64,000 nucleotides of DNA, taken from positions 23,439 to 87,438 of the forward strand of contig JAULBX010017748.1 in assembly GCA_032358255.1 (NCBI GenBank). The letters are read 5' to 3'. Within the stretch, counting starts at the first letter, position 1, and every line of letters starts with the position of its first letter. The DNA comes from Heterotrichella gracilis. Its lineage: Eukaryota; Sar; Xanthophyceae; Tribonematales; Xanthonemataceae. A model generated the notes under the pieces. It saw nothing but the letters and a program-made list of their open reading frames with translations. It had not been told where the DNA came from and searched no databases. Shown piece by piece: positions 1 through 64,000 of the stretch. The position numbers and the translations under genes are program-made.

Positions 1-3000
1 TGTCATCATGATGTTGGCCATTACCTCCCCTGCTGCGACAGTCATCATGTTCGCAATTACCTCCCCTGCTGGCATTGCATGTGCATCCTCCGGGAGGCAG
101 GGTGCCTGGGGGTCAATGGTGGCATCCAGCTCACCCCTGGCTTGGAGCTCAGTGATTTGGTCGGCGCCTGCAGCATTTACCAGATGAAAATGATCAGTAC
201 ACTGCCAATCTGACTCAGCTTGGAGCTGCTGCTATTATGTCATTCAAATCACCCTTGATACTAACTGTCTCCTGGACCAGCCGTCACCACGATGGGTGCT
301 ATACAGGGCAGAAAGGGTGGGGTGAAGGTTTGCGCTCACTCAGCAGTTCCAGGTAGTTCTCCAGGTGGAAGTTGGTTTTTGCCAGCACCCCCCGCTGCAC
401 AACCGCCTCCTCGTCATACGCCTGTGCAGCCTCAACCTCTGTGGTGAATAGGCCAAGGTACCTGGGGGCCCAAGGGAAGACATTGAGATCTGAAAGGTGG
501 GGGGGGATCAGGGATGGTGAAGCGGGCAGGGACCTGGGAGGTCATACCCTAAAATACCCTTGCATAAAACAGGCTTAAGAGCCCACGCGCACTGGTTTGT
601 ACTTGCGCGTGCCATTTAAACCCCAAACACCAAATCCTAAACCATACATGCTGACTTGTACACCGCAAGTATCCCACAGCACGTTGCGCGTGCCCCACAA
701 CCCACGTGGGTACAACCCTAAACCCTGCACTCCAAACCCTACACCCACCCACTTATACTTGCGCGTGCGCCACATACCCTAAATCCTAAACCCTCAACCC
801 CAAACCTACTAAATTGTACTTGCGCATGCCCCCATATACCAAACCCTGAACCCTGCATCCACTCACTTGTATTTGCGCGTGCCAGCCTGGCCAATGCGCG
901 ACTCCCACCTGCCCTTCTGGTGCCTTGTCACCCCCCGGTACTGGCTGGTGCTGCGGTCAACCCCCTTGCTGTGGCGCCGCAGGGCACCCACAAGCTCTTC
1001 AGAGCTGACCTGGAGCAGAAACCACATGGGAAGCTTAGTGTGGCTATACTTTGGGTATTGTGGTTTAGGATGTGCATGCACAACCTTCGGAAGGCATGTA
1101 GTACATCTTCAAGTTTAATAGTATGCTTCTTTTCTACAATTGAAGAAATACAGCTGAAGAATTAAATGGGGGCTGCAATGCAATATCAACATACATACAA
1201 ACACTCTTTCAAACGTTATGATAGATCTAGTGAATGATAATGTTTTGTCTGGGCTAGGGTTTTACCTGGTCCAGCACAGCCAGCGCCTCCCCATAGTTTT
1301 CCAGGGGGAAATTGAGCACAGTGACCACACCCCGGAATTTAAGTGCAGCCAAATCATATGCCAGGGCGGCAGCTGCCTCAGCTGAATGCCCCCCCAGGTA
1401 AACCTGCTTTCCCCCTTGCCAAATGTGTGCCTCCCAGCGGTTGGTCCTGGAGTGGGCGAGTGAGGGGGGTTGGGAGGGTGAGGTGGGCAGGAGGGTTACC
1501 CTCCTGTCCTCCCCTATGGTTAGGTAGGGGAGGGGAGATACTTTTGACAAGGAGATGAGGTTGAGGTGAGGAAATGATCAGGCGGGGGCCTGAAAGCATA
1601 TAGTTGCCAGGCATTGGTCAACGCACATGTACAACGACACGCAAGGTGAACCTGGATAGTGAACTTTAAAGCAGCATTGCATGGTTTGCGCAAGTAACAC
1701 ACTGCAAAATGGACAGGCAAATCAGCTGGTCCCCTCCCCTTCTCACCTGCAATGGAAGGTGACCCCCTTGAACAGGGAGGGCTCCTTCAGCCGCCGCTTG
1801 GCACCGCTGCTGGCAGGGCTGCTGGGGAGGGGTGCTGGTGCTGCCATCCCCGCTACGCCCTCCCCACTCACATCACCATACGCGCGCTTCCCTAGCATGC
1901 CGGTGGAGCCCTGGGCTTGCATTGCCGTCTGACCGTTTGGTGCAATCATGTAATTTGTGATCGGCGCCGTGTAATTGGTCATTGGGGTCGTGTGATTGGT
2001 CATGTGTGCCATGTGATTGGCTGCCGCGTGGGAGCTGGGGGTCTCATCCCCAGGGTTTGCGTGGGTGTAGCAAAACCCTAGGTTGCCGTCGCCGAACCCT
2101 TGGGTAGGGTAACTCTGCTGCATGCTGGCCAGTGAGCCAGAGGCGCTGCTACCATGGGTTGGGGTGATGGGACCTGCTGACATCACCGACGCAGTGTGTG
2201 CTGATGTCATGATGACGTCACCGCTGTAGGGCTGGGAGTTCTGTGGTGTCATGGTGACATCAGCGCAGTGCTGTTGGGGGTGCTGCCAGGCTTGGTTGAA
2301 ATGGGAGGGGGCGTAGTGGGTGGTGAGGAGGGCACCCACGGGTTTTCCGGAGAGCATGGTGTAGGGATGTTGCTGGGGCATCTCCAGGGGGTATGAGGCA
2401 TTCAGCTGGGAGGGGAGGGGAGTGGTGTATTGCCCTGCGCTAGGGTTTTGCGCAGGCCAGGCGCAGTCCACCATTACGGGGGTGCTGTCCTCTGCATGGC
2501 ACAATGGGAGGAATCCATTCAGCTTTGTACGGTCACAGGAACTGATTGTCATCATGGATGATGACAATGTGCACATGCATACCCAATGCGCCATGATCAG
2601 ACATGTGCATTGAATTCGGTATTTTGCAGGAATGATGGTGATGAGGTGTACGACTTGAATGCCAGGGCCACATGCCAATGCATGTGCTGGCTAGCAGCCT
2701 AGAAAGTGTACAGCTGCATCATGAAGAAGAACCAGCACAAGTGTGATACCTTTACTAATGCATACATGCGTATTGCCTGACACGCTGCGCCATACACCAG
2801 TAGGGACCAAAGGAACCCAGCACCAATATCAATGCATGCATGCGCATCGCCTGTCAGTGATACCACAGCCACCCACCTTGCAGCAGGATGGCAATGTCAT
2901 TGTCATCAAAATACTCCCCCTGATCCACCCATGCGTCATTGTGATGGCATGGCTCAGCCCATGTGGCTACCTCTGAGGTGCCATCTGTCATCACCACATC

Positions 3001-3213
3001 ACCCACAGGCTGGAGCAACTGCTCACAAAACCCTACAAAGCCCTGGCAGAGCCCTAGGGCGGGTGGGGCGCACTGGGCGTCGGGGTGCGCCCACGCGGGG
3101 GTGGTGTGGGGTTGGAGGTGGTGGGTGGCGGTGGGGTGTTCTGAGGTGTATGTGTAGTGGGTGGTGTGGGGGTTCACCACTGTGGAGGTTAAGGGTGCTA
3201 CACAAGTGGACAT
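1..3213 (-). CDS. Double-AP2-domain transcription factor (ANT/AP2 type), 3' end outside window
   Basis: Nuclear DNA-binding regulator of the plant AP2 family. Exons read here: 3213-2877, 2491-1747, 1446-1266, 1009-867, 461-340 and 167-1, all GT-AG with matching phases; the last runs off the window. The first AP2 repeat (about residues 353-412) holds [15 protein letters not shown] and [17 protein letters not shown]. The linker starts [16 protein letters not shown]. The second repeat (about 441-505) holds [33 protein letters not shown] and [12 protein letters not shown]. This two-repeat layout and linker are typical of the AP2/ANT branch; single-AP2 ERF proteins lack them. The N-terminal 350 residues are Gln/Thr/Met-rich and low in complexity. 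The visible C-terminal part contains a short internal repeat (AGEV-AN-M). The ATG at 3213 is the first good start, but an upstream exon cannot be excluded. Targets are unknown. Confidence 0.88.
595..832 (-). repeat. Four degenerate copies of the AP2 exon-4 end inside the next intron
   Basis: The true exon 4 ends at 867 with a donor after the codons for RKYK. Copies of the same exon edge recur downstream in the intron at about 597-613, 655-692, 751-768 and 814-831. Each shows a variant of the plus-strand string ACTTGCGCGTGCC and is separated by CCCTAAA-like spacer. None is followed by usable exon sequence, so these are decoy donor copies. Confidence 0.75.
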
Positions 3214-4533
3214 TGTGGCTGACGCGGCTTAGTTCAAGTCACTTGAAGGATGATCAAGGCAATGATTGCAGGCACTGATTCCAGCAGTGCGCCACACTGT
3301 TGAATGATTTGTAGCGCAGCTGGTGGGCGGATTGATTTTGTGTGTGCGCAAACGTGAGCTGGGATTTTAGCAGAATGCAGGTGGTCACTAGGGTACGGAG
3401 TCCACAATGGTGTTCCAGCAAAGCAAGTGCTTGCGACACTACAACTAGTGTGGCGTTAGGCAAACTCCTTGGCGTTGGTGGTAGGAAGCAATTTGGAACA
3501 CGGCAGTGCACTGCTGCTTATACTTGCGCATGCATGTCGTCAGAGCAATACCCACGTCGTCGTACCTGCGTCCCCCGTCAAACGATGCCGACAGGCTGCG
3601 CGCGCGCAAGACCCCCGTGCGCGCGCATGCATACGCCGCTGCCGCAGCGGCGGTCGGCAGTACCGATCCCAGTGCGCGCGGTCAGAGGTGAGGTGAGGTG
3701 ACCCCTGGTGCGTGCGCCCAACAAACCGGCCGGCGGAATCTCCAGCTGTACGACCCACACTCCGCAGCGGCAGCCTGTCGCCGATTGACAGGAAGGTGTA
3801 TGCTTGAGGGGGGTGGTTTCATGCATATGCATGCAGCGCCTACAGCAGCTGGCGCTGTCACGACGCGCGGTTTGTTGGCTAAGGGAAAGCAAGCATTGAG
3901 CCTCGATCCAATCCTTTCAGCCGTGCGCTTGGTTACGTGTTGCTGGAACGTGCTAAGGAGCCGTGTGTGCTCTGTCCTCGTCTAAAGCCTCGTCCCGATC
4001 CGGCCCTTGCAGCGGCCTTTTTTATTGAGCTTCGGAAGGGAATCCCGGCCGGCACTGGACCTTACGCACAAGCTTGGTGCGTGGACAACAGTGTCTCATA
4101 TCCAACGGGGTTCGACATGTTGGCCACCCAAATCAACGGCAGGGGTATCAAGCGACAGCAACTGGACAGGTTGCGGTGTTGCTTGTCAAGAAGCCTCTAT
4201 GTGGTTGCTCTGTGGATTCAATTTGGCCAAATTGCTTTTAATCATGACTCAGTTCAGCCCTAAAATCAGCGACTGTCTGAAACGGTCCAGTACAACTTGG
4301 CATACCAATGCTGCAGGTTGGAAGCCCAATCGCATGTGCATCAAAATCTCTCATTAGGGTAACTCGCTACCACTAAGTGACTACCCTGCCTGCTGCATTG
4401 CACCCCTCAGAGGTTCTCAATTATGTGTTCAAATGCCATGCAGGCCTACTGTAGCCATTGCCTGACCAACCATTGACCACCCGCAATGGTCACTCCCACC
4501 CTGCCAGGTGGCGCCACCTCAGCCACCTCTTGA
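3214..4533. promoter_or_regulatory. Divergent intergenic region between AP2 factor and kinase
   Basis: About 1.3 kb separates the ATG of the minus-strand AP2 gene from the ATG of the plus-strand kinase, so both promoters should lie here. A GC-rich stretch around 3590-3680 has alternating CG and TGCATGC palindromes. No convincing TATA box or conserved ORF was found; short ORFs here lack protein-like composition. Confidence 0.45.
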
Positions 4534-7500
4534 ATGGCATTGAACCATGTGCGCATCCAGTGGGGGGGGTGCAGAAGGGGAAGGAATAGGCGACACAGCG
4601 CAGGGGGTGTAAGCAGGCACTGGTGGGGGGTGGCGGGGCTGGTGTTGGCTGTGGTGGTGTGCGCTCAGCCCTGGGGTGTGGGGTGTGGGGTGGAGGCAAG
4701 CCGCACCCTCCTTCAGATGGCAGCACCACCACCACCACCCGCCAGGTCACCACCACCAGCCAGGCCACCACCACCCACCAGGCCACCACCACCAGCCAGA
4801 CCACCACCACCATCACCACTGCAGCGCCCACCACCACCTTCACCCCCGCCCTCCCCTCCCCCCCCATCACCACCCTCCCCCCCACCTCCATCCCCACCAC
4901 CAGCACCAGTCCCAACCGCTGCTCCAGCCCCCGAACCAGCCCTCACTTTTTACTCCCCTCTGGCCCCTTCCACATCCATGTTTCCCCCCCTGGAGGGCCC
5001 CAGCGTATTACTCCTAGCCAATGGGTCAGATGGGACAATTTCCAACGGCACGGACAGCACGCTGGGATCCCCAACCATGGATGATCTGATGTCCCAGCAG
5101 CCCATCATGAGCATCGATCGGGCATGGCTGCAGGATCTGTTCAAAAACATCAGCCTGTATGACTTCCTGGTACAGCTGAATGCCACCCTGATAAATCAGA
5201 CGATTTCGTTTGACATCCCCCCTGCGCCCCCAAATGTGGGGGTCATTTTGCCCCCACTTGGCCTGGGGCCGGCACCGGTTGCCAGGCTTTCCCCTCCAGC
5301 AGGTGAGACCCTGCATAAGGGTTGGACTTCTCATACTGCATGGCAATAAAGAGTGTGGTTTAAACTTTACAAACCATTCCTTGCAAAGAAGCAACCAGCG
5401 AGGAAGGTGGACCATGCTGGTTTCAGGTTGTAAAATGAACATGCATTAAGTGTCAGTCATTTGAATACATGGCCTTTGGAGCAGTGTCTGTTGTCAATAT
5501 GGTCCATTCAAAGCCTGATTTTGACACCCTTCTAGGGTGTCAAGCCATGCCTTTTCAATGACCTCCCCCCTCGTCTTCCCTGCATTGCAGGTGTGCGCAC
5601 ACCGCTACCACCCTCCTCCTCCCCTGCTACCTCGACTACCACCAACCGCTCTCCTCCACCACCACCACCACCGCCGCCGCCACCGCCACAATCCACCAAA
5701 TCTCCGCCACCGCCGCCACCCCCTTCCCTTCCAATTTCCTCCAAATCCACCCCCCTGGGGTTGGTTGTGGGGGTGCCACTTGGCATCACCGTGGTGATCC
5801 TGGTCGCAGCCTTTGCAGTCTGGAAGTGCTGGTTCGCCTCACGCAGGTATTAATTCCCTACCTCTGTCTTTGTGCATCACTTTCACATCTTGATTCATGT
5901 ATGTACCCTCCACGGCGTGCTTTTTTTTATGTATAAATATACGTATAATATTCAATGACTTTTGACGTGTTTAAATATCTCTCCATTCAAATGCTTAAAT
6001 CTTTTGACTAGCGCAGCTACTAGGTTTTTAGTTGCCTTTGGGTGGTACCTCATGGTATTTGCCTGGCACAGGCAAAACCAGCCGTCAGGTGCAAACAGCA
6101 CGATCAAGAAGCTGGGGATGGGATCCTCCGTACGGTGGGATTTGCCACACTCGACACCTTCCATGGGAGGAAGGAAAAGTGGCAGCGCAGGGGGCTTGGA
6201 CAATCCCAGCATCCACGCCAATGGAGTGGCTACCACGCCCCGCGGGGGTATGCACCACGCGCGCAGCGCACCTTTGATGGGCGGGGGCGAGCTGGCAAGG
6301 TGAGCTTCACAGGGCTAGTAGCAAGGGTGCAGCGATATTTTCCTATATGGATTGTACCAAAATCATTCATCCCCAAACTTTGGGCCAAAGCCACATTGGT
6401 GTCAATTGTAGTTTTAACGGGTATTTACTTCCGCAGTCGTCATTGTTATGTAATATGATCACCCATTATGCAAACCGTTTACAAACCATGATGGGCTCGG
6501 ATTTGGCAAATGTTCCATAATTTGACGTTGCGATTGTATGTACTTGAAGAATAGTTTAATTGCATTCAATTTGTCCTTTTGTATTCGTATTATGGTGTTT
6601 AACTTCAACGTAATAACTTTTTTTTTTGCTTCAGGCAAGTTGCGCTCTTGGAGCACGCCAGCACAGCGGGCTTGTCCAGTCTGTTTGATGCATCGGAGTA
6701 CACAGGGGTGGAATACGATGAGGAGAATGGGGGAGGAACAAACGCCACAGGCGGCGGGGGTGGAGAGGGTGGGCAAGGGGGCGAGAGGGCGGAGGGTGAA
6801 GGGGGATCTGGGGAGGGCCAGGGCTTGCACAGGGACAACAGCTCAGCGGTGCGTATATAGTGGCGCAGGGAAAACCCCAAACCCTGATCCATAAACCCTA
6901 CAATCAAGTAGCTCAGATATTAAACAGGGACAACAGCTCAGCGGTGCGTACCCATTGGTGCTGGAAATCCCTAAACCCTAAGCAAAATCTCAGCAGTGCG
7001 CATCTGTTGTCTCCATTACTCTAAAATATTTCAGGGTGATACCAGAAACTCTGTCATAAATCAGACTCTTCAATACCTTGAAAAGCACTAGATTCTTCCG
7101 AAATTTAGGATCACTTCCTCCATTATATTAATCTCCTTCACTCACCTGCCCCTCAGCTGCTGGATGTGGACATGTCAAGGGAGGTAACCCTGGAGGAGAA
7201 ACTGGGAGCGGGGGCTTTCGGTGCGGTGTACAGCGCCATGTGGCGAGGCCAGCGTGTTGCCATCAAGATCATGCAGGGGGGGCACGCGGATGCAAGGGAG
7301 CTGGAGAGTTTCAGGTGAGGAGGGGAGGGAGGGTGGGATGCAGCGGTGGTTAAGGTTACAGGGAGGGTGGGATGTAATGGGGGTTAGGGTTTACGGTGCC
7401 CAGCCTGGTTGCGGGGGCACAGTGGACTATCAAGCCCTAGAAGGCATTTTCAAGGAATCCAGATTCTTGCAAATGCCTTCAAGAGACCCTCAATATTTAG

Positions 7501-10148
7501 TCTCTTGTGTTACATACAGGGCATGTGCACCCCCTAAAATCCTAACCCTTAACCTCGTATGCAGGCACGAGGCGAAGGTCCTCCAAGGCCTCAACCATGA
7601 GCGCATAATATGCTTCCTGGCAGCCTGCACCTACTAAAACCCTAAACCCTACATCCTATGTTATTGAACCTAAACCCTAAAACCCTACAGGTTGCCGACA
7701 ATAAACCCTAAACGTCCGATGCAGGCACGAGGTCAAGGTCCTCCGAGGCCTGAACCACGAGCGCATCATTTGCTTCCTGGCGGCTTGCACCTCCCCTCCT
7801 AACATCGCTATTATCCAAGAGCTGGCGGTGGGGGGGTCGCTGTACAACAAATTGCACCCCAGGAATGGGGGGCAGAAATGCTGCTGCCCCATGGAGACCC
7901 TGGAATTGCTGCAGATTGCGCTGGATGTGGCGGACGCGCTGGTGTACCTGCACCCCCAGGTTTGTACCCTTCGCTTTGCTATTATCTTTACACCACGCCA
8001 AAGTTTGTGTGCAATTAATGGTGCCTGTCGGGCTGCAAACGGTAATAGTTTATCCACTTATATGCTCATGTAATTATTTTATCCCCCAGGTGGTGCACCG
8101 AGACCTGAAATCCCAGAATGTGCTGCTGGATGCTGAAGGGAGGGCCAAGGTGTGCGACTTCGGGATTGCAAAAATGAAGGACAGGTGCGCCGATTTGCAA
8201 AGTCTGAAGAAACATTACCCATGCCAGGCCACCCCAATAGGAAATTGCATGCGCAACTGCCTTCAGACTTCTATGCATGGCAAATGAGCATTGTATGTTG
8301 TACGATTGTCTTGGCGCACACTGTGCCTGGCAACCCTACAAGAAGCCCTAACAGCCCACGAAAACCTTTACCATGCTGCAGCACTGGCCTGCTGACCCCC
8401 TGCCCCCCACATCCCCCCAAATGCAGGACATTCCTGTCCACTGCCAACGTCCAGGCCGGCACCCCCGCCTACATGGCGCCAGAGATGTTTGAGGGCCACC
8501 GCATCAGTGAGGCCGTGGATGTGTACTCATTTGGGGTCCTATTGTGGGAGATGCTGACGGGGAGGGTCCCCTGGGAGGACGTGAACTCGCCACTGCAGGT
8601 AGGAAAACCCTAAACCCTATGCTGTAAACCCTAAACCCTACACAAAAGGACTCCCAGATCACCGCAGCCTAGGCCTAGGGGGATGTTGAGATGTTGAGAG
8701 CTCAAGAATCAACCCCTTGCCGCATCGCACACCCCTTCCCCTTGTGATTACACCTCGTGACCTCCCTTCTCAAATCCATCCTACCCTGTCACATTTTGAA
8801 CCCCAACCCTCTCCCACCATAAAATCCCAGCCCTCCTGATTCCCCTCTTTCCTCCCCTCCCACAGGTTATCTACCTGGTGGGTGTGCTCCAGGAGCGGCC
8901 CCCCATCCCCCCCGATGCCCCCCCCCACCTGGCGCACCTCATTCACAGGTGCTGGGGACCGGACCCCCATGCTCGCCCCGCCGTCACTGAAATACGTGAG
9001 AGGCTGCAGGTGAGGACGCAAAACCCTAGGGACGCAAAACCCCCAGGAACGCAAAACCCTAGGATACAATACCCTAGGGCGCAAAACCCTAGGGTTCGTT
9101 GCGAGGACGTCTCCTTTCCTCTTAAAAAATTATGCTGGGTCTGTTTGAGTATATCATGTCTATAAAGTAAAAGAGCATCAGTGCCTCTGCCTTAGATTTG
9201 GGAGTCACAACGATTCACAATGTTTCATAGGGACACATTACTCTTGAAAACATATCTTGTTGGAACATATCCCCTAGCTACTCACCTGTGTAATGCACCC
9301 TGCAGGCCATGCGCCAAATGCACCTGTGCCAGATGCAGCGCCAGGCAAAACAGCCACGGGCAAGCACATCCTCAGCCTCTGCTACAGACCAGCACACCAC
9401 CACCACCACCTCCTCCAGCAGCAGCAGCAGCAGCGACCAATCAGAGAGCAGCACTGATTGCCATGTGGCGCATCATGATCAGGGTGCAAGGGAGGCTGTA
9501 CACCACCAACCAAGCCCAGGAGGAGACCACCCAGCGCACTGTGATATGGATGGAAATTCTGGGAATCCCACAATCCCCAGTAGCGTCCCCGGCAGCAGGA
9601 GGGGGTCTTTCAATGGGGCGCCAAGGGGGGGGGTGACTGGGGGTGCTGATTCAGAGCGGGTGGCGAGTGTGGTTGCTTCAACCAGCGGAATGGATTCAAG
9701 CCAATCATTGTGGAGTAGTAATCGTGATGCCATTGGAGCCTATCATCACTTGACATCGCAATCAAGGTCAGCCAGCATGCCCAGCAGGCTCTCCCCACCA
9801 TCACTCACCACTGGATCAAGCTCCAATTCAAACTCAAACACAGGATCCTGGGGGCTGTACTCACATCCCACCGGTGGAAACCCAGCGCATCAACAGGCGC
9901 TGAGAAGACCCCCTGATGTGGAGGCGCCCCCTCCCCATTTTCACCCCATGCTGCACCCCCCTGGCTGGGTGCACCCCCTACCAAGGGTGGAGAGTGGGCA
10001 GCAGGAGTCGCATGGGGCTGGCCAGCCCCACCTCCCCTTGACACCACGCGCCTTGGGTGTTACCCCCCTTGGACCAGGTGCAGGATTTGGGGAGAGGGCA
10101 GGCGCTTGGCGATCCCGGCGCACATTGTCGTGGGTCCCTGGGATGTGA
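4534..10148 (+). CDS. Membrane receptor-like protein kinase with proline-rich ectodomain (TKL/Raf-like catalytic domain)
   Basis: Ten exons: 4534-5302, 5591-5846, 6072-6299, 6635-6848, 7157-7314, 7725-7959, 8090-8184, 8427-8598, 8866-9009 and 9306-10148. They give a 1037-residue protein with every phase matching. A hydrophobic N-terminal signal or anchor (about residues 31-48) is followed by long P/SP-rich tracts and several N-glycosylation sequons (NGS, NGT, NIS, NAT, NQT). A second Pro tract precedes a membrane span (about 312-334, LGLVVGVPLGITVVILVAAF). After a Gly/Glu-rich juxtamembrane part comes a complete kinase domain: GAGAFGAVY (506-514), VAIK with Lys526, HRDLKSQN (623-630), DFG (643-645) and MAPE (668-671). 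The tail is Ser/Gln-rich. All catalytic residues are present, so it should be an active Ser/Thr kinase sensing the wall or matrix. The ligand is unknown. It converges with the 5-oxoprolinase gene. Confidence 0.9.
6922..7005 (+). repeat. Echoes of kinase exon-4 end and its donor
   Basis: Exon 4 ends at 6848 with GACAACAGCTCAGCG before GTGCGTA. The same exon edge plus donor recurs almost exactly at 6926-6949, and a weaker third copy lies near 6983-7000. Both are in the following intron and both have CCCTAAA-like spacer. Confidence 0.8.
7561..7640 (+). pseudogene. Decayed duplicate of kinase exon-6 start (pseudo-exon)
   Basis: Positions 7565-7635 repeat the start of the real exon 6 (7725 onward), including its GCAG acceptor. 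The translation is HEAKVLQGLNHERIICFLAACTY, against HEVKVLRGLNHERIICFLAACTS in the real exon. The copy then reads an in-frame TAA at about 7634-7636 where the real exon continues. It has no donor. Inclusion would truncate the kinase before the catalytic loop, so only the second copy can be productive. Confidence 0.85.
9010..9095 (+). repeat. Short tandem repeat at donor of kinase exon 9
   Basis: Immediately after the exon 9 donor (9010) the intron repeats a unit like GACGCAAAACCCTAG about five times with small changes. The unit starts within the donor region and contains a CCCTA telomere-like core. Confidence 0.7.
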
Positions 10149-10247
10149 TCTTGGGGGCCAAAAAACAATTAATGGGGCTGCCCCTTTAGGTTTTTGCAGG
10201 GGCTCAGGCTAAGGCTTTACAAGGGTCATGTGACACATGACATGTAC

Positions 10248-10260
10248 TGTAACAATTACA
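10248..10260. terminator. Candidate bidirectional poly(A) signal between convergent genes
   Basis: The string TGTAACAATTACA contains TGTAA on both strands, 3 nt apart. TGTAA is the usual poly(A) signal in chlorophycean algae. The plus copy is 100 nt after the kinase stop. The minus copy is about 590 nt after the 5-oxoprolinase stop, and it is among the few TGTAA matches on that strand there (another at 10217-10221). Confidence 0.5.
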
Positions 10261-10529
10261 ATAACAATGGTTAATAGGGCAACAGCCAGAAACGACGTAT
10301 TGCCTTTTGTGACCTTAAATGGCATATATAAGGGACGTCAAGTCCACGACAAAATAAGTGATACAGTATGCCACGGGGCTCGACCTCCGGGAGGTGCCAC
10401 CGAATGCCTACCACTAGGTTTGAAAAGCTGATACATGTCAATTAAGACTAACGCTCGAGCAGGATCCCCCCTCCGCCTGCACACTGCTATACTTTAATTC
10501 CCCACAAACCCTCAACCCAGGCTACTGCG

Positions 10530-10740: not shown

Positions 10741-10848
10741 CCCACGATCATCACCCTTGATCATTTCCTTGATCACAACACCCCCTGTGATCCCACCAAC
10801 TCCCCCTTCTCCCCTTGCCAGTATTATGTTATTCTTGTCCCCTTGCCA

Positions 10849-13800
10849 TCACACCGACTCCTGTGCCAGCTTGTACTGCAGCAGGCTCCCCCCCTCCCGC
10901 ACCACACTGCTGTACTCCCCTGTGGTGCGCCGGGTGTGCAGCCAGAGGTCAGCCGCTGAGCTGGCGGTGGCTCCCTTGGTTTCCTCCCCGTTCTCCTGAT
11001 CAGGGGCGCCGCAGCCTCCTCCCCCTGCACGATGTCATGGCGCACATTCAAAAACAGTTATCTAACAATCCATATCAAATAATGGAACCATTGTGGACTT
11101 GAAAGTCCCACTGTGTGCTCTTCAGGGGCACACAAGGCAATAAGTCAATGACGGATGGGAATGCCCTTTTATTTGTTTGTTTGTTTAAACCATTTAATGG
11201 ATAGCGCAGCATGGCAACAACGCATGGGCCACATGAAATGTCAGGAAAATCCCCCCTCATGAGGGAAAGGAGTTACATCGGTGCCGATCAGTCCATATTT
11301 AGGGTTTACAGTACCCCAAGAAACCCTAAAGCCGTGATCCCTTACCTGGGGTCAAGATGCGCAGCCTGTCTCCTCCCTCCACCTCCACAGTCGCCTTCCC
11401 CCCCAGGCTCACCACCTCCCCTCCCCGTTTCAACCACAAATTCACCCCCTTGGCCGCTGGCCCCCCTCCCAATATGCCCCCTGGCGCCACCGAGCGGCGC
11501 TCAGACAGTATGGAGGCGGTCAAGGGGCGAAGGAACTCGACCTGGGTGGGGGGGAAACAACGAGATTTTATCAGAGGTTGACGAATTAACCCAAGAGGGA
11601 AGGACTTGCAATGATGCTGGCAGGCCATGGCGTCACTCGCAAACGGCCGGATTGGAAAATGATTTGATTTTCTTAAATTCTCACTGCAATGTTACCCATT
11701 GACAATGCACTGCAAGTTGTTGGTGTAGTGGTCACATAGTTTGGGCAATTAAATTGGCAATGCCCCGCAATTTTGCTGGTGCAGTTTTGGGCACCTGCAT
11801 TTGTCCCTGCACACACACTTGCCACACACATTGTCACATACTGTACAACACAGCTGGTCAACGGGCAAATGCAAGTTGACCTGTGCCAGATAAGTGCTAC
11901 ACCAAACCACAGGGTTTCATGCACCACCCACCTCCCGCACCACGCCATCGCCCCCCCGCCACCTCCCCTGCCCCCCACTCCCGGGCCGCAGCGTGAACTG
12001 GTGCAACACAAGGGGGTAGCGCCGCTCCAGAATCTCGGGGTCAGTAATTCTGGTATTTGTCATGTGGGTGTGGACCCCGCTGCGCCCCTCCCACCCGGGC
12101 CCCGCCCCCGCGCCCCCCGCGATGGTCTCGTAATACCCTAGGTTAGGGTCTCCAAAGGTGAAGTTGTTCATGCAGCCCTGGGAGTGGTGGGTGGGGTGGT
12201 GGGTGAGTGTGAGTATGAGGACGGGAAGGATGAAACCCTAAAGACCCTTGGAGGATGTTGGGATAGGGATGCGTAACGGCTTTCTTTGTGCTTTGCATAG
12301 GGGTTCTCAACAAGAAGCTTGCAGAGGTCGTTTCACACCTGACACTTTGCAGCTGCATGAAAAACCCTGACCACCAAATCAGCAGCCCCTTTAATGTCAG
12401 CATGGGGCTTTGCAGGTGGCTGGCTAACCTGAACAGGTCCACTTCTAGGGTTTTGCTGTTGCCTTTTATAGGGTCTCACCTGGGAGTTTGCAGCCGCATC
12501 AAAGGCCCTGAGCACCAAATCGGTGACCCTCTGCGATGTGAGCACATTTCCGCCCACCACCGCCCCCCCCCGGCTGGGGCTCAATATGGAACCCTTTGGG
12601 ATTTTGACCGTGATGGGGGCCAGGCACCCGGAATTTAGCGGGATTTCTTGGGACACCATGCAGCGCAGGGAGTATATGATGGCTGAATAGGTGACGGCAG
12701 GGGGGGCGTTGGTGTTGCCAAACACCTGGGGGCCGGTGCCTGCGGGAGGGGTTTCATTCAGGGTTTTGTTAGGGCTTTTTGTAGGGTTTTGGTTGGTTCT
12801 TTTGGTGGTTTTTCTGGGGGACGCCATGCAGGGCAGGGAGTAGATGATGGTGGAGTAGGTGACGGCTGGGGGGGCGTTGGTGTTGCCAAACACCTGGGGG
12901 CCCGTGCCTGCAGAGTACAGAGTTCCATATATAGGGTTTTGGTAGGGCTTTTGGAAGGGTTTTGGGTGATTTATTGTGCGTTTTCTGGGGGGACCATGCA
13001 GGGCAGGGAGTAGATGATGGCGGAGAAGGTGACGGCAGGGGGGGCGTTGGTGTTGCCAAACACCTGGGGGCCGGTGCCTGCGGGAAGGGTTTCGTTAAGG
13101 GTTTTGCAGAGAGTGATCTGTAGGGCTGTTTGTAGAGTTCTGGTTGATTGGTGGGTTGGCATGGGACAGCATGCAGCAAAGTGAGTAAATGATGGTGTAG
13201 GTGACGGCTGGGGGGGCGTTGGTGTTGCCAAACACCTGGGGGCCCGTGCCTGAACAGGAAGGGTAATTTCAGGGTTTTGTTAGGGTTTTGTTCAGATGCT
13301 GCTGGGCTTGAACCCCTGGGTTTGAACCCCATGACCTATAGGAGGGATTGCCATAACTCCAGCCAGATGCGTTATTTGGCGGAAAGTGGCATAACATCGT
13401 TGTTACCAGATCAATGCATGCAGGTACTTGCAGAAAAGCCTGACAAGGTTGAATCACGATCCCTAAAAACCCTCATGAAGGGGACTTGGACTCTTCCTCC
13501 AACACCCCCAACGTCGCCGCACCTTCAAAATCAAACACCGCCGATCCGTCCCTCCGATCAATTGTGACCGACAGTGCGATCGGCGTGCCATCGTCCATCT
13601 GCTCCACAGCTGAAACAGTGCCTACCTCGGGGAGGCTCCTGGCCAATGAGAACTGGACAAGCATTTCGCGCACAGCGTGCTCGGCATTGGCCTGGAAGGA
13701 GAGTTAGCGTGTGTGAGTGTGTGGGGAGGCAGGAGGTGCGAAGAGGGAGAGGGGGAGTTGGTGCGTGTGTGGGCACGTGAGACGGCGGGGGTTTGGAGGT

Positions 13801-29145: not shown

Positions 29146-29191
29146 GGCACCTGCTGACTGTTGCATGCTGAGTGTGCTGGGTCCACGAGGT

Positions 29192-34610: not shown

Positions 34611-34726
34611 TTTGCTGCTCTCCATCCTGGTGCTCTCAATTTTGGGGGAGTAGAAAAAAGAGGAAATGTGCGAGCAGGGCCGCAGCATGTTGGCAGTGTC
34701 CACCCACCCACGCACCACCAGCCTCA

Positions 34727-52059: not shown

Positions 52060-53630
52060 CTAACTTGATGGCTCTTTGTGTCGCTGGAAGAACTGGAGGT
52101 CGGCCTCGGATGTGCAGCAGACCTCTCTCTCCATCTGCATCATCAGCAGCTCCACCACCTTGTTGGAAACCTGCAAGCAAAGGAGCGGTGTTTGGCAACG
52201 ACGTTGCCAGCACTGACTTGTGTGTGCAAGAAGCGTTCGAGGTGCATCTCTGCAATGGAACTGCTCTAGGTTTCCCAAGGTCTTGGGACCCACTTGCACA
52301 CAGCATACAGCATTCTGAAGCAAGGCAAACTAGCTCGTTTGGTGCACGACATAGCATGTTCACTTGAAGCACAAGACTTTGCTCATCTTATGCCCATACG
52401 GTATCTAAAGTACAGATCATGTGGTCCACAACATGCACTTTAGGCACAGCGCTTTGTCCTCGCATACTATGTGGCATTGCAGGTCTGGGTCTTGAGTATT
52501 ACCTCAAACGCGTTTGTGAAGGTTTCCCGGTAGTTGAACCCCAGCAGCTCCGTGCTCATGCCCAGCAGCACAGACCCCATCTCGTCCTCACCCCGCCGCC
52601 GCATTGTCACGTATGCCTGCAGTGGTGCGGGCCCAATGAGCTCATGGCGTGCTTAGGGCAGCATATACTGTTGGTACAATAGCAGAACAACCTGAGTCAA
52701 GGCTGTGGCTTCCAACAGTGTTGGACTAATCCAAGGCAGGCCGCCAAAAGCTTGCCCACAATGCGCCAAGCCCCACAACCCACCACCCCAAACATCACGC
52801 TGCTAACCCACAACCCATCTCCCCTGCTGCCCTGCCCAAGTCGCCTTGCACATCCTGGGGATGCCACTGCGCATCCAACAAACCAACGCTTGCAGCTGCC
52901 CACACCCATGGCATGCCAAATGGAACTGGCAACCCCGCGTCAATGCACATGTGGCCAAGACACTGCTAACACAACCCTGATCCACGCTGCGCCAAGCCCC
53001 GCAACCCACCTCCCCCGCTGCCTTGCCCAGATCCCCGTGCACCTCCTGGGGAAGCCACTCTTCGTCCAACCAGGACTGGATGGTGCCTGCGATCCACTGC
53101 TGCTGCTGCGCCAGCTCAGCATCGCTGCACACGGCTGGGAGCACTATTTCCTCGATAGGTTGTATATCCTGCAACGTAGCAGTGTAGAAGCGCTTTGTGT
53201 GCAGGCCGGTGCACTGCATAGGTTGTGGTCTCAACTACATGGTATTTGTGAGCTCACATACCTGAAGACAACAGTGAATGACGGCGTGACATGCGGGTGT
53301 GCGGCTTCCAGTGCTGGCTCACAAGGGTTGAACATCGGAAAGCTGATGTCAACACCAATAGGTGTGTGCAGAGGTTTGACTGTGGCTGAGGCATGTGTCA
53401 TGCATGTGCACATGGCCTAGTACCTTGGAGCCTGGAGCTGATTGGCAGGTAGTGGCTAGGCGCCTGGCTTGCGATACCCGGGATAACTGTGTGGATGTAT
53501 GCCGACAGGCCTTGGTATTAGGCCTAGCAAGTAGCGCGTGGCTGCATGTCCTGGCGCTGGTGGTTGGCGTGGTGGCATGTCCAGTGGCTAGGCATGTGAC
53601 TCGCGATGTCGAAGCCATGGGGAGCACCAA
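52060..53630 (-). CDS. Unrecognised small protein, probably organelle-targeted
   Basis: Four exons, 53630-53424, 53168-53010, 52616-52503 and 52170-52060, give 196 residues with all joins in phase 0. The first 69 residues are rich in Ser, Thr, Ala and Arg and poor in acidic residues (MVLPMASTSRVTCLATGHAT...), as in chloroplast or mitochondrial transit peptides. The mature part is alpha-helical in character: SWLDEEWLPQEVHGDLGKAA, MRRRGEDEMGSVLLGMSTEL, FTNAFEVSNKVVELLMMQME. Splice sites and clean codon structure make it a real gene, and the mature part looks conserved, but I do not recognise the family. The first exon is the least certain. Confidence 0.6.
52795..52872 (-). repeat. Echo of the exon-2 end of the gene at 52060-53630
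   Basis: Repeats the end of the exon at 53010 (codons for LDEEWLPQEVHGDLGKAAGE) in diverged, frameshifted form, downstream in the intron. Confidence 0.72.
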
Positions 53631-58400: not shown

Positions 58401-61400
58401 CAGCAGAAATTCGGGGATCAGCAGACATTTGTGCCCGTGTTTGTGCCCCTGGATCTCTCCACTGACTCAGGTACAGCCCCTTGTAATGTTATATTATGTT
58501 TCAGAGGCATTTGTTGTACTGTATGTGCATCACATGTTGCATTGTATGTACATTGAATCGATATGGAATACCGCGTAGTGGCCATTTGCCTTTGGCAGGC
58601 AGTGGGTCGGTGGCATTGATTCAGCGTTCAACCATTCAGGAGGGTGCACAACACCTGCGCCAACATTGACATTGACAAGGCATGCGCCTGCGCATGTCAT
58701 TGACCGTATCTCTCTAGTCCTTACCCCCACGGTGTAGCCCAGGCACTGAATGTTGGGCTACACCTACCCGAAACCCTAAACCTTAAAACCCTAAACCCTA
58801 CCATGATTACTTGTGGACCCGCACACTGTCTATCAGTATGCAGCCACCACCACCGCCCTCCGCTCCTCACCCCTCACTCCCCTACCCCCCCTAACCCCCC
58901 TCATCCCGCAGGCGAGGGCTCTGAAGGCAAGGCCGACCCCGCGCTATGGCCGCAGCCGCTCACAGTGGATCCTGAATGGTCACTGGTCAAGGGGAGGCAG
59001 AAGAGGGTACCGGGCGGAGACCCGCTGGACGTAAGTAATTTATAAAAATAGAGAAATATAACATTAGAAGGGAAGACAATAAAGAACCCCAGGAGGCAGA
59101 GAGGGTATCGGGCGGGGACCCGCTGGACGTGAGTGAATTTGGCTTTCTAGGACGGTAGTTTCTATCTTGCAGCCTTATGCAGACTGGGTTGGTTTGATGG
59201 AGGGTGATGTAGCTGCGGTGGGGGTATTGCTGTGGTTGTTGCCTAGCAACAGGTTGTAGGGTTGTAGGGTTCTCAGAACGCTTAGCTCTGCAACCCTTAC
59301 TCTCTGCCTGCAAAATACAACCCTGCTGCCCACGTGTCCATGCCAAACAAGAAATGCACAAATTTTCATCCAAAACCCTGAACCCTTCCCCCACCTCTCA
59401 ACAGTCCGAGCCCTTCCGCCGCTTCATCCACATGATACACACTATTTTAAGCGAGTTTGCACCTGGTCGGCGCGTCTTTGCGTTAGGCAATACTGCTGCA
59501 AATCCCCACCTGAAATCGCCAAAAACACACCTCACAAAATCAACTCCCTGCAAAACCCTGCAAAACCCTGCAGAATCCTTCCTCAACCTCCCCTCCTCCC
59601 CCGCCCCGCAGTTTGAGCCCTTCCGCCGCTTCATTCACATGATCCGCACCAACTCCACTGAGTTCGAAGCCGGCGGCCGCGTGCTGCGCATGAAGCAATA
59701 CCTGCGCGCGGATGTGGGCCCCAAGGTGGTTGATGTGGTGCTGGATGCCCTGAAGGAGAACACGCGGGTGGAGGCGCTGTACATCCAGAACTTCGAGCTG
59801 GTGAGGGTGGGGTGTGGCGGGGTAGTGGGTATGACGTGGTGAGGTGTTTTTGGTGTGTTTTTCCTCAGGTTTGGGTAGGATTTATATGGTTTGTGGGTAT
59901 GGCGTTGTGGGTCCTAAGGCGGTGGTTGTGGTGCTGGATGCCCTCAAGGAAAATGGGGTGCCAGGGGGTATGGGTGGTGGATGTGCCCCGGGAGTGCACC
60001 ACCAAGTGCCAATTGTCGCCATGGCACTCAATGCCATCTTCCAGCAAATGTGCCCATGCAATTAACACAGTCCACCCACAAAATGCACCCACTCGCTCCC
60101 ACACCCCATCCCACCACTCCCTCACCCCCCTCCCCTCCCCCACCCCCGCAGGGCATGCACGACCCCCAGCTGGAGCGGCTGACCGAGGTGCTGCGCTTGG
60201 GCCGCATCTGGGCGCTCAACGTTGGTGAGAACTTCCAGATCAGCCTGCCCGCGTGGGAGGTCTTCACGCGCGCCCTGCCCGAGACCTCGGTGTCCTATCT
60301 CTACGTGAGCGAGCACCACCTGGTGCGGACCAATTTGAAGAACCAGATGCGCGACGCGATCCGGGGGAACAGGAGGTGGGTGGTGGCGGGTTGTGGTTGT
60401 GGTTGGGGGAGGGAGGGTGCTGGGTTCAAATGGGTGTGTGGCAGGGTTGGGTGTTGTCCTGGGGATGAGCACACATCGCAATGCTTGGGAAGGGGTGGAA
60501 TGAATTGCCCATCTACAGTTCAATCGCCTCCTCCTGGCGCCCTGGCTTCTGTCACGCGTGCGCTGCGTACGCACCCTCAGCCTAGTAACAGGTGCACTAG
60601 TGACCCACATGGCATCAGGGGCCCACATGACCCACATGGCACCGGTGTGCACAAGGTGTCATGTGGGTCATGTGGGCCCCAGGGTGCCAGATGCACTAGT
60701 AAACGGGTGCACAAGCTTGCGAATTTCAATCCTCCCCATCCCGCCTAATGCAACTATTCCCCCCTTGCCCCCGCAGGCGGCTCAGCCCCCGAGATCCCGA
60801 GGTCATCATCCGCATCGGCAACATGTGGTACAACCCAAAGCTGCCTTCGGACCTTGGTGAGTGCACAATTATTTTATTATTGGTATTATTATCGTCATTG
60901 TTATTACATGTGGTACAAACTACAGCTGCCATTGGACCTCGGTGAGTGCACTAGTGCAAGGGGAAGAGGGAGGAGGGGTAGGGAATACCAGGGTTTGAAG
61001 TGGAGATTGTATGGATACCTTTCCTGGCAGAAATTTCCGGGATGCACCCCCTAAATCTCCCAACCCCCCAGTGGCCCCCCGCTGCAGCACAACTTCTGAC
61101 CCCTTCCTTCCCCTCCCCTGCAGTCCAACCTAGCGACAAAAACTTGCAACACGACAGGGACTACCAGCTATCCCTGGCCGCCGGCCCCGTGCTGGGCCAG
61201 GGTGGCGGGGGCTATGCAGGGGGGGCCAAGGGGGCCAAGAAGCGCAAAGGGGAGGTGGTGGGCAATGGCAAGGCTGTGCAGAAGAAGGCCAAAGCTCCTC
61301 TGCCAGCCAAGTCAGGTGGGTGCAGGGTTTTGGTTGTGGGTTAGGGTTTCTGAGGTTGGGTTTTTCGTGGGTATCATGGTGTGGTGTTGTTGGTCGGTGG

Positions 61401-63873
61401 GTGGGTGGGTGGGGGACCAAGCTGCATGGGAAGCTGGGCATGTGCCGGGTGAAGCCCTGCTGAAAACCCTGAAGGCTTGGGGCTGGCGTTTCACCCAGGG
61501 CGGCTCATTTCGTTCCATACCATTTGCAGTCAGGCTCAGCTTTGTTATCACCAGTGATAGCGGGGTTCAAGGGTTGAGGGTTAGGGTTTAGGGTTTTGGG
61601 GTTGGCCGCTAGCCCTCCAATTTATCCACCGTCCCGCTCCCCACCACCACCACCAACGCGCCTGACCCCTCCCCACCCCCACCCCCCACAGCCAAGCCCA
61701 CCCCCAACTCCCGCCACTACGACCCCCCACCGCCCACCCACCACCACCCCACCAACGGCCACGGCAAGGGGAGCGAGGATGTGCTGTTTGATCTGAGCGA
61801 CGGGGAGGACGATCACTCCGCCTCCCTCCTGTCGATCGATCAGGACATGGACATGGAAATGGAAGCTGAGTTGAGCGACTCTGGGAGGAGTTCGAGGTGC
61901 GGGGAAAGGGGGAGGGGAGTGGTGAAGGGGACTAGGGCTATATAATATAAGTTCCAGTGTTGATTTGTACCCGTGAAGCCAGCACATGAGTCGCGGAAAC
62001 TTGGCGCTGAAATCCTGCAGAAAGTGACCCCATGCGGGCTGCGAACCCTGGGCGGCCCCGCACAAATCCAGCCCCCTCTCCCACCGCTCAACCTTACCAA
62101 AACTCACCAAAACTCTACAGAATTTGGCAAGCAACAGGAACGTCTGCACAGTACCGCACACCCCCTCTCCCCCACCCGCAGGCGCTCCAAAAGCCACGCC
62201 GCGTCAGTGTGGCGATCCGCGCTGCGCACCCTAGGCGGCCCCGCACGACCCATTCCTCTCTCCCACCTTTCAGCCCTACTGAAATGCACCGAATACCCCT
62301 CCAGTAATGGACAAGCAGCAGGATTGTCTGTACAGTAGCTCACCTCCCACACCCCTCCCACACCCACAGGCGCTCCAAGAGCCACGCCGCCTCAGTGTGG
62401 CGATCCGCGCTGCGCACCCTGGGTGGCCCCGCGCACCGCCGCTCCTCCCCACCCCCCCTCATCCAGGGCACCCACGAGCCAGACCCCACACTGCGCATTC
62501 CAAAGTCGGCAGCGGCCCGTGCCGCCGCCCGCGCCGCCGCTGCTCAGCACCCTCCCGCCCAGCGCACCACCAATAACAGCCTCAAGGCAGGCAAGTAAAT
62601 ATTTCGACATGATATTGGCATAGGCAAAAGGGGGGAATTACCCTGCCTAAGGGTTTTGGGGGTTTTCCTCTTGTTTTTGGGGTGGTTGTTAACCTGTCTT
62701 CCCCAGTGTGGTCTTGCCTGTGGATGGTGTTGCTGTTGCTGCAGGTCCAAGGCAGGAGAGTGTCTTGCTTAAGGTTTAGGGTTTGTTCATTGTTGTTGCT
62801 GCGGTGCGTTTTGTTTTTCCATTTTCCCCCTCGTTTCGTTCACTCTTGTTGCCGTTACAATGCATTGCTTGTCTCCCTGGGATTCCTGGATTCAAGTAGG
62901 TATCTCTTTGCATTAGATTCCCTTCCTTGCTGGCAAGACCACCCTCGTGAAGGGGCACTTGTACCGTCACATCATAACTCCCATAAATACCCTCTAGTTA
63001 ATGTTTCCTTTCCCCCTGCAGGCAAGACCACCCCTGTGAATGGGCGCATCCGCCCCCCCGCAGTCAACCCCCCGAAGGCCAAGGCCACGGTGGCCGACCT
63101 GGTGGGGTGCGGGATACTGCCAGCTGGCAAGAAGAAGTTCGTGGTGGGGCAGCACCAGGAGGTGTACGCCACCATCAAGGCAGACGGTGAGTAGGGTTCT
63201 AGCTTTGGCTGTAGGGTTCTGGTGCACGCTGACGTATGGCTTTGGCTGGGGAGTAGGGTTTTGGGTTGGGCTTGCCATTTCTAGGTTGGGCTTTAGGGTT
63301 TGGGTGCATGGGATAGGGTTTTGGCGCGGGCAAGCAAGAGTTTGTGGTGGGGCACCCCCAAGAGGTGTATGCCACCATCAAAGCAGATGGTAGGTAGGGT
63401 TCTGGCTTTGGCTATAGTGTTCTGGTGCACGCTGACGTATGGTTTTGGCGGGGGAGTAGGGCTTGCCATATTTAGCTAATCGTTTGGAAAGCAGCATACG
63501 CGTGCAGGCGGTCTGCAATGCCCGCACCTTCGCATCCATATCCATTTGCATTAGCGGTTCTGCGGGGACACGACACTATTCTTCTTCACCCTTCCGCCAT
63601 ATGCGCTAGCCCTCCCTCAGCCCTGCATACCCCCCCTGCCCTATTTTACCCACTTCCCCTTCCTCCCCTTGCGCCAACTCCCTCCTCCCACCCCCCGCAG
63701 GCGGTGTGGTGTACAACACCCGCACCTTCCCATCCATCTCCGCGTTCGCCCTGGCGGTGCTGCGGGAACGGTACCCCGCCCGCCAGGCCTGCGACGGCTG
63801 GAAGGAGGTGGCATACAATGGGCAGAAGCTGGATGTGCTGCGCCAGCAGTACTACGAAGCCCAGGGGGTGTGA
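55444..63873 (+). CDS. Protein with protist LRR-like module and C-terminal RAMA domain
   Basis: Thirteen exons: 55444-56046, 56963-57038, 57717-57919, 58248-58470, 58912-59030, 59612-59800, 60152-60375, 60777-60856, 61124-61315, 61692-61896, 62370-62590, 63022-63186 and 63701-63873. They give 890 residues, all in phase. The N-terminal 400 residues are low complexity (Ala/Pro/Thr/Asn, a His run). Residues about 409-572 form an LRR-like module (VEALYIQNFEL, IWALNVGENFQISLPAWEVF, TSVSYLYVSEH, NMWYNPKLP). A basic, then acidic linker follows. Residues about 800-890 match the RAMA domain (VADLVGCGILPAGKKKFVV ... NTRTFPSISAFALAVL ... CDGWKEVAYNGQKLDVLRQ). RAMA domains accompany adenine methylases and can read N6-methyladenine; that role here is inference. 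The start could be 55369. A CAG just before 55442 may be an acceptor from a 5' exon. Confidence 0.82.
57105..57150 (+). repeat. Echo of RAMA-gene exon-2 end
   Basis: A short copy of the edge CACAGCAGGTG (true exon end 57038), about 100 nt downstream in the intron, after CCCTAAACCC. Confidence 0.55.
59091..59143 (+). repeat. Echo of RAMA-gene exon-5 end
   Basis: Repeats AGGCAGAGAGGGTATCGGGC and CCCGCTGGAC plus a GTGAGT donor (true exon end 59030) in the downstream intron. Confidence 0.85.
59400..59965 (+). repeat. Echoes flanking RAMA-gene exon 6 on both sides
   Basis: The exon is 59612-59800. Its start (codons for EPFRRFIHMI) is copied with acceptor at about 59402-59490, upstream. Its middle and end (VGPKVV..VLDALKEN) are copied at about 59893-59960, downstream. 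Confidence 0.85.
60903..60955 (+). repeat. Echo of RAMA-gene exon-8 end
   Basis: Repeats ACATGTGGTACAA, CTGCC and GACCT plus the GGTGAGTGCAC donor of the exon ending at 60856. Confidence 0.85.
62030..62300 (+). repeat. Two echoes of RAMA-gene exon-11 start
   Basis: The true exon starts at 62370 (codons for RSKSHAASVWRSALRTLGGP). A close copy with intact acceptor lies at about 62177-62275 and runs into an in-frame stop at 62336-62338. A shorter copy lies at about 62030-62075. Spacing is about 190 bp. Confidence 0.88.
62591..63021 (+). other. Likely GC-AG intron in the RAMA gene
   Basis: Exon 11 ends AAGGCAG with a GCAAGT donor, the typical strong GC-type site; the acceptor is CCCTGCAG before 63022. 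Joining keeps the frame into the RAMA domain. Reading through gives a stop (TAA at 62596-62598) after two residues. Confidence 0.72.
63320..63572 (+). repeat. Echoes of RAMA-gene exon-12 end and exon-13 start in one intron
   Basis: 63325-63440 closely repeats 63127-63240 (codons for KKFVVGQHQEVYATIKAD, the donor and the start of the intron). 63505-63570 is a diverged copy of the exon 13 start (true start 63701; CCCGCACCTTC..ATCCAT). Each lies on the expected side. Confidence 0.85.
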
Positions 63874-63969
63874 AGGGTGGGGTGTGGCCAGGGAAAGCGG
63901 GGAGGGGAGGGGAGGGTGGTTTTTCCTCCTGGTGTGGCGGCGCGGGGCGTTGTGGGAGGGGGGGGTGCG

Positions 63970-64000
63970 AGGAGGGGGGGGGGGGGGGGGGTGGGGGGGG
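63970..64000. repeat. Poly-G tract at window edge
   Basis: Almost pure G for 30 nt, just after the RAMA gene. It may be genuine or a sequencing or assembly artefact. Confidence 0.6.

Follow-up and report, generated by a model that had tools for sequence, protein, structure and literature searches.

The introns of a 64,000-nucleotide stretch of the Heterotrichella gracilis genome (assembly GCA_032358255.1, contig JAULBX010017748.1, positions 23,439 to 87,438 of its 87,438 bases; hereafter the window) carry copies of the edges of neighbouring exons together with their splice sites, which we call junction echoes. Such copies had been described, under a directional rule, in an earlier note made on this DNA from its letters alone, and our analysis confirmed that the observation is real. 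The copies are local, direct, and neighbouring, they decay roughly neutrally, even the youngest pairs hold filler between the two copies, and exon edges are represented in excess. As the best explanation, we favour local direct duplications that straddle an exon-intron border, would originate in staggered breaks, and would favour exon edges, a reading to which we give about an even chance. The protein kinase gene (forward strand) offers an example. Here, an intronic echo of an exon start (7544-7632; acceptor plus 68 nt of exon) is 85% identical to the real intron end and exon start at 7704-7792, and the two are separated by 71 bp of filler with telomere-like CCCTAAA tracts. The exon called by our gene model (7725-7959) begins in the second copy, and it is with this copy that the Pfam kinase profile is matched end to end (1-258).

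The window was analysed together with 240 kb of the same genome, giving a wider sample of 304 kb out of a 68.5-Mb, 903-contig assembly. This added sequence (200 kb from contig C101, 20 kb from C896, 10 kb from C153, and the 10 kb adjoining the window on its left) was chosen for AP2 matches or for adjoining the window, not for repeats. Gene models were obtained with a two-strand hidden Markov model (HMM) with splice-site chains, trained on the 304 kb itself without annotation or RNA, and comprised 61 genes and 431 introns (median intron 269 nt, median exon 150 nt) with sharp consensus sites (donor CAG/GTRAG, acceptor TGCAG/G). The predicted proteins are plausible, but some echoes were called as exons, as with one 12-residue string repeated in 5-oxoprolinase. 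By "real exon" we therefore mean one so labelled from reading frame and homology, not from RNA, and our class "intergenic" takes in untranslated regions. Pfam confirmed the AP2, protein kinase, F-box, and RAMA genes of the window, homology identified SBNO and 5-oxoprolinase, and a Pfam search with the short gene near 52 kb gave no match. For two of the window genes, the named close proteins come from Myrmecia, Coccomyxa, Trebouxia, Apatococcus, and Chlorella (Trebouxiophyceae and other green algae), at 38-68% identity, and the window itself resembles DNA of a Trebouxiophyceae-like green alga. At gathering scores, Rfam returned nothing in the window.

Self-alignment of the window gave 66 direct matches versus 1 inverted, and matches within 1.5 kb across the 304 kb numbered 120 direct and 1 inverted, with 0 in Markov-1 random sequence. 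The window holds 33 local direct-repeat clusters, of which 27 include a predicted exon-intron junction, 5 are coding/non-coding pairs, and the last is at the end of a gene. Echoes accompany 46 predicted junctions, some of which are themselves echoes called as exons. The earlier figure of more than 30 junctions or arrays is thus borne out. Among the seven genes named at that time, the kinase, 5-oxoprolinase, F-box C, SBNO, 52-kb, and RAMA genes all have the pairs or arrays listed below, whereas in AP2 a single donor echo was seen, without any cluster. Clusters are concentrated in the window, where 64 kb contain 33 of them and the remaining 240 kb contain 43. Events also cluster by gene, the dispersion being 106 where multinomial draws average 55 and reach at most 113 in 2000. 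Across the sample, the spacing between copies has quartiles of 122 and 252 bp. The tandem duplications of about 100-200 bp that had been proposed hold good as to locality, direct orientation, and spacing (about 100-250 bp). The note did not remark that most copies are separated by filler rather than arranged head to tail.

F-box genes A and B show no echoes. As a separate observation, two adjacent and nearly intronless F-box genes with about 71% DNA identity occupy 25295-29208 and are free of echoes, while a third, intron-bearing F-box gene alongside has them. On C101, moreover, events per intron increase with the GC content at third codon positions of the gene (Spearman 0.45, p = 0.006), a possible lead to targeting.

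The echoes have a preferred side. With a junction-spanning query (40 + 40 nt, searched over 600 bp on each side at a score of at least 32), acceptors of the window (n = 102) had a copy upstream in 26 cases and downstream in 9, and its donors (n = 102) had a copy downstream in 18 and upstream in 8. The corresponding counts on C101 were 18 upstream and 2 downstream for acceptors (n = 283), and 6 downstream and 4 upstream for donors (n = 283), so that for the latter the direction is not clear from this test alone. The rest of the sample gave 3 and 0 for 45 acceptors and 2 and 0 for 46 donors. A reverse-complement control of this search yielded 0 matches at a score of at least 32 and 3 in all at a score of at least 28, and a control against other genes yielded 4 in all. 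The exon-only query uses exon sequence alone and is hence free of splice-site bias; over the 304 kb, it placed copies of exon starts upstream in 41 cases and downstream in 8, copies of exon ends downstream in 29 and upstream in 10, and inverted copies in none. The rule that exon-start copies lie upstream and exon-end copies downstream is therefore obeyed by 70 of 88 copies (p = 2e-8), with 40 of 53 in the window and 30 of 35 outside it (exon starts 18 to 1, exon ends 12 to 4). Scoring by side, which the earlier note had put forward as a check, thus gave unequal sides over the 304 kb.

Its wording that such copies lie "only" on one side is not strictly upheld, though most of the 18 exceptions dissolve on inspection: 10 fall in the 5-oxoprolinase arrays, 2 in SBNO, and 6 are left unsettled by homology. 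For all 10 in 5-oxoprolinase (reverse strand), the match to a Coccomyxa protein shows that the HMM "exon" is itself an echo. Residues 87-113 of that protein match five copies of one exon's start (21692-22729), at 22677, 22406, 22214, 21948, and 21782, and the last alone, the most downstream, continues into the real exon (21580-21782). Residues from 1040 onward match four places in an array of intron-end plus exon-start units (12644-13290; period about 170 bp, 3.8 copies according to Tandem Repeats Finder, TRF), and the sole run-on, to residue 1126, is again at the most downstream copy, the real exon at 12480-12740. Residues 122-158 have a spare copy downstream (21373-21679), where the exon end at 21562-21679 and its echo at 21373-21489 are 92% identical across a 72-bp filler that is unique in the assembly (a single match). 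In SBNO (also reverse strand), the exception at 38179 is settled by a weak homologue match that puts the real exon at 38054-37854, with its upstream echo at 38119-38209 (feature 37991-38209, 85%). The exception at 44834 is arguable, since the exon copy (exon end 44985-45045) matches homologue residues 411-462 and the downstream echo (44829-44889) matches residues 445-471, nine residues further than the real exon; here, the two copies (feature 44829-45045) are 97% identical and the 95-bp filler is likewise unique, with a single match. Altogether, 11 or 12 of the 18 exceptions trace to mislabelled echoes, 11 of them clearly so by homology, and C101:163435 is the likeliest true exception among the six unsettled. 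The earlier suggestion that the exon-proximal copy is the one used agrees with these tblastn matches in 5-oxoprolinase and with the kinase model described above.

We regard the direction rule less as a separate law than as a near-geometric outcome, close to a tautology, of local direct duplication combined with an intact reading frame. The spare copy falls upstream of an acceptor because a duplicated segment a-b reads a-b...a-b-exon, where it is the second b alone that continues into the exon; donors are the mirror image. Any local direct duplication that preserves the protein obeys the rule, and the rule is therefore evidence for local direct duplication.

More telling is where the duplications lie. 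Of the 76 blast clusters of the 304 kb, 45 contain a junction and 22 are mixed; the others are 4 intronic clusters, 3 exonic ones, an intergenic one, and one at a gene end. In 19 of the 22 mixed clusters, the closest pair consists of one mainly coding and one non-coding copy. A second method found 78 loci: in 65 a coding copy is paired with a non-coding one, 8 lie in introns only, 2 are intergenic, and 3 are exon-exon. Taking the closest pair of each of the 73 non-exonic clusters, 62 are at an edge, 7 within introns, 3 in intergenic DNA, and 1 at a gene end. If one unit is placed at random, 35% of cases are expected in introns, 18.5% in intergenic DNA, 22% in exons, and about 22% at edges, the last being about 28% of the non-exonic cases. 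The edge share exceeds this 28%, whether counted by clusters (67 of 73) or by loci (65 of 75; p = 9e-26), and by odds the edge excess is about 4- to 16-fold without correction for lifetime.

Could such an excess arise from survivorship alone, with duplications frequent everywhere and junction-spanning ones noticed since the conserved exon copy stays recognisable for longer? This explanation would yield the direct orientation, the adjacency, and the direction rule, but would have to contend with only 8 intron-only and 2 intergenic loci out of 78, where random unit placement predicts 35% and 18.5%. When edge pairs are allowed to be visible for twice as long, the expectation rises to 45%, and 65 of 75 still departs from it (p = 9e-14). 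A generous null, in which both copies are scattered over the present sequence, expects 56% at edges versus 62 of 73 closest pairs (p = 2e-7), and with doubled lifetime about 72%, leaving only a modest excess (p about 0.01). We think that the generous null overstates edges, because a real intronic duplication leaves both copies in the intron. Duplications confined to introns or intergenic DNA should be no less tolerable than those at edges. Moreover, neutral pairs implanted into C101 with random filler, at 3, 8, and 13% change per copy, were recovered in 40, 40, and 34 of 40 cases in introns and in 40, 39, and 37 of 40 in intergenic DNA, and the shortage of such pairs is therefore not due to search blindness. 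Among clusters whose closest pair is at least 90% identical, none was classed as intronic or intergenic. The earlier proposal that only junction-spanning duplications survive visibly accounts for direction and orientation, yet as an account of the shortage elsewhere it is doubtful. Survivorship alone is probably not sufficient, by a margin that varies with the null chosen, and we consider it unlikely.

The anatomy of the pairs bears on how they formed. A gap of at least 20 bp separates the copies in 53 of 73 non-exonic clusters (median 72 bp), the other 20 having a gap below 20 bp or an overlap. Among the non-exonic closest pairs, 13 reach 90% identity, and in every one of these 22-136 bp separate the copies. 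In GC content, filler shows no difference from introns. Three of the 53 fillers were searched against the 68.5-Mb assembly as possible templated insertions, and each matched itself only. Of 56 fillers, 12 are telomere-like, versus a mean of 4.0 in matched intron stretches (maximum 9 in 100 draws). Intron-side identity, when averaged, fades gradually across 30 nt, and some loci form arrays of about 4-6 units with periods of 105, 106, and 170 bp. These gaps, present even in young pairs, and the three unique fillers would also suit a capture of nearby DNA by synthesis-dependent strand annealing, in which an intron break is patched with the neighbouring exon edge and the filler is old intron. Four partial exon/intron donors are, in the portion of the source cited here, also recorded among human repair-mediated duplications (PMC2671141). 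Proximal capture, however, predicts inverted copies, of which the exon-only search found none, and copies beyond the exon, whereas the far side accounts for 18 of 88, six of them unsettled. It is less likely because inverted copies are wanting, and we judge it decidedly unlikely.

Telomere-like sequence is also a feature of the introns at large. The most frequent 8-mer of the 304-kb sample is AAACCCTA, and the density of AAACCCT/AGGGTTT is 2.26 per kb in introns as compared with 0.41 in intergenic DNA and 0.30 in exons. The intronic cases have the C-rich strand in sense 209 times and in antisense 101 times, versus about 16 expected in all, the antisense form lying closer to the donor and the sense form closer to the acceptor (p = 3e-7). 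Introns without duplications hold the repeat as well, at 1.54 per kb, and the exact (CCCTAAA)3 has 834 sites in the assembly, with 0 for the backward control. Such intronic enrichment may reflect repair, a composition compatible with splicing, or both.

Once formed, the echoes decay about neutrally. Those that were not called as junctions retain AG in 31 of 38 cases and GT in 14 of 20 at 86-89% exon identity in the exon-only search, in keeping with the earlier view that introns fill with decoy acceptors and donors. Among gapped pairs in which one copy is coding, the three codon positions mismatch at rates of 0.095, 0.098, and 0.232, and a ratio of about 1:1:2 is expected because a free copy is paired with one that is free only at third positions. 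The same pairs contain 12 frameshifting versus 3 in-frame indels.

To account for these pairs, we propose that two nicks on opposite strands would produce a staggered break, both overhangs of which would be filled in before end joining, sometimes with telomere-type repeats added prior to the joining. The duplicated segments, about 30-140 bp, would straddle the exon-intron border, mostly with 20-140 bp of new or unrelated filler between them, and exonic DNA or its border would be hit more often than introns or intergenic DNA. The copy joined to the rest of the exon would keep the gene working, and the one stranded in the intron would decay, whereby introns would gain length and decoy splice sites. 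At a minority of loci, ordinary tandem-repeat expansion would then give arrays of about 4-6 units. More tentatively, and with a good deal less conviction, breakage and duplication-forming repair might be directed at exon borders, or else at exonic DNA as a whole, in which case events in exon interiors would be purged. The rate there would be several times, and up to about ten times, that of introns and intergenic DNA. Introns would on that account lengthen mainly by taking in copies of their own splice junctions, with telomere-type repair giving some of the filler.

Several observations weigh against the staggered-break reading. The repeated unit reaches a median of 53 nt into the exon versus 18 nt into the intron (63 clusters, p = 1e-4), an imbalance not expected of a break at a random position, and the edge excess shrinks under the generous null as given above. 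Telomerase would be expected to leave TTTAGGG towards the left end of the filler and CCCTAAA towards its right end, but the telomere-like fillers showed no such polarity (mean positions 0.51 and 0.53). An inserted filler and an inserted copy are, without an outgroup, indistinguishable. Lastly, the third-position share of mismatches is 18 of 23 at 90% identity or more, 62 of 101 at 84-90%, and 110 of 215 below 84% (p = 0.011, 0.028, and 0.79 versus one half), and where the two copies abut and one of them is coding, the rates by codon position are 0.056, 0.051, and 0.188 and the share is 41 of 64. The youngest echoes thus look more codon-constrained than a purely neutral copy predicts.

This high third-position share in young pairs would be explained if the assembler had joined divergent haplotypes or strains in series, as would the rarity of intron-only and intergenic pairs and the intron flanks that cease to align near the splice site. 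Against such joining, 5-oxoprolinase is single-copy in the assembly (28 matches, all within the window gene), the arrays run to about 4-6 copies, the echoes contain frameshifts, and non-aligning intron flanks beside exon parts that are 96-97% identical seem too extreme for alleles; we hold it to be very unlikely. The same third-position bias could speak for functional echoes, kept by selection as alternative or back-up splice sites, and blast-selected echo acceptors do score like real ones (29 of 29 with AG, median 10.3 versus 10.4). That full retention was, however, a selection effect of alignments required to cross the splice site; it disappeared under the exon-anchored search (AG in 31 of 38, near neutral), and with frameshifting indels exceeding in-frame ones by 12 to 3 we rejected this reading as highly improbable. 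Intron gain by tandem genomic duplication of an AGGT-containing exon segment is barely credible for the bulk of the echoes and was also rejected, since similarity of donor and acceptor in register over 430 introns averages 12.9 versus 13.0 between different introns and the echoes often bear intron-side splice sequence inside introns that continue past them, the one candidate being a 161-nt intron (C101:98730-98891, that is L018:8730-8891) whose upstream exon end and intron end agree in register at 26 of 52 positions, where 0.1 introns of this kind would be expected.

Small tandem duplications have reportedly been treated before in rice by Vaughn and Bennetzen and in plant paired-nick work by Schiml and colleagues. 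Closest in kind, going by the passages cited here, are the tandem duplications that arise at breaks whose overhangs are filled in by CST-Pol alpha-primase (PMC8355091), which are likewise direct, neighbouring, tens of bp long, and of proposed break-repair origin. Those are adjacent by definition, whereas here filler is present in 53 of 73 clusters and exon edges are favoured. The echo loci thus work like known small tandem duplications, yet we do not file them as such because most fail the defining adjacency. Human repair-mediated duplications (PMC2671141), in the part of that account used here, are also local copies, there of 619 bp at most, and a small number of them include partial exons and splice sites; unlike ours, with 0 inverted and mostly exon edges, they include a described inverted exon copy and have few exonic donors. 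Telomere repeats inserted at double-strand breaks, some of them with duplications (in the excerpt of PMC2246262, 6 of 130 loci in rodents and 4 of 25 in primates), resemble some of the present fillers in having telomere-type repeats at the joint, but differ from the 12 of 56 telomere-like fillers without polarity seen here. In intron gain by tandem genomic duplication, as outlined in PMC2891723, coding DNA is also duplicated and one copy spliced around; here, however, an existing intron grows, and donor and acceptor are out of register. PMC4974935 is a further paper on that kind of intron gain. Direct repeats at exon-intron borders are described in PMC11782384 too, but as given there they measure 4-30 bp (mean 11.4) and lie between the two borders of an intron, unlike the mostly 30-140 bp copies of one border found here. 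Each ingredient therefore has a precedent, while the combination of density, filler, and exon-edge excess was not found among the open-licence articles that our searches listed. Nor did we find the directional junction-echo pattern described among the open-licence PubMed Central articles so listed, a coverage outside which most subscription journals lie.

The remaining pairs of the window follow the same plan. On the forward strand, the kinase gene has a second one at 6829-6979 (exon end with donor 6848, downstream echo 6924-6979, 84% identity). RAMA has exon ends with downstream echoes at 58993-59140 (exon end 58993-59041, echo 59092-59140, 90%), 60821-60951 (echo 60906-60951, 87%), and 63123-63464 (donor 63186, echo 63326-63464, 86%), and upstream echoes of exon starts at 59383-59649 (echo 59383-59442, exon start 59590-59649, 80%) and 62032-62432 (acceptor 62369, 79%). 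On the reverse strand, 5-oxoprolinase adds an exon end with donor 14024 and an abutting downstream echo (13888-14074; 89%, spacing 91 bp), an array of 105-bp intron-end plus exon-start units (14073-14659; 5.5 copies by TRF) whose real acceptor is at 14117 and where tblastn places residues 949-983 on the real exon 14129-14025, and an exon start (19582-19655) with an upstream echo at 19708-19785 (feature 19582-19785, 88%). F-box C has an exon start with an abutting upstream echo (31177-31355; 82% over 91 bp), and the 52-kb gene an exon end with a downstream echo (52807-53070; echo 52807-52879, 81%).

SBNO holds further pairs. Its exon starts with upstream echoes lie at 35999-36344 (exon start 35999-36124, two echoes, 72% and 76%), 38887-39034 (a young pair with exon start 38887-38945, echo 38976-39034, and 30 bp of filler, 97%), 41933-42793 (exon start 41933-42041 and an array of 106-bp echoes; 5.3 copies by TRF, 94% matches), 43842-44144 (echo 44013-44144, 86%), 45111-45292 (overlapping echo, 83%, spacing 82 bp), and 47184-47334 (echo 47292-47334, 91%). 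Exon ends with downstream echoes lie at 36731-37031 (exon end 36881-37031, echo 36731-36874, 75%) and 45350-45520 (exon end 45434-45520, 83%). Both 100-base assembly gaps of the window (21954-22053 and 42042-42141) are inside junction-echo arrays, those at 21692-22729 in 5-oxoprolinase and 41933-42793 in SBNO, and copy numbers are uncertain there. Aside from the echoes, CpG is at 0.47-0.61 of its expected frequency, with a TpG/CpA excess of 1.43-1.50, in all classes of the 304 kb, a pattern that suggests CpG methylation whether the DNA is exonic, intronic, or intergenic.

For annotation, these loci carry a warning, in that an unaided gene finder calls echoes as exons. Should the exon-edge focus hold genome-wide, there would be dozens of loci per few hundred kb in which the true site has a decoy beside it, upstream in the case of acceptors and downstream in the case of donors, and the duplication process would be coupled to gene structure rather than random. 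These introns would then offer a graded natural record of intron lengthening and of spliceosomes coping with strong decoys.

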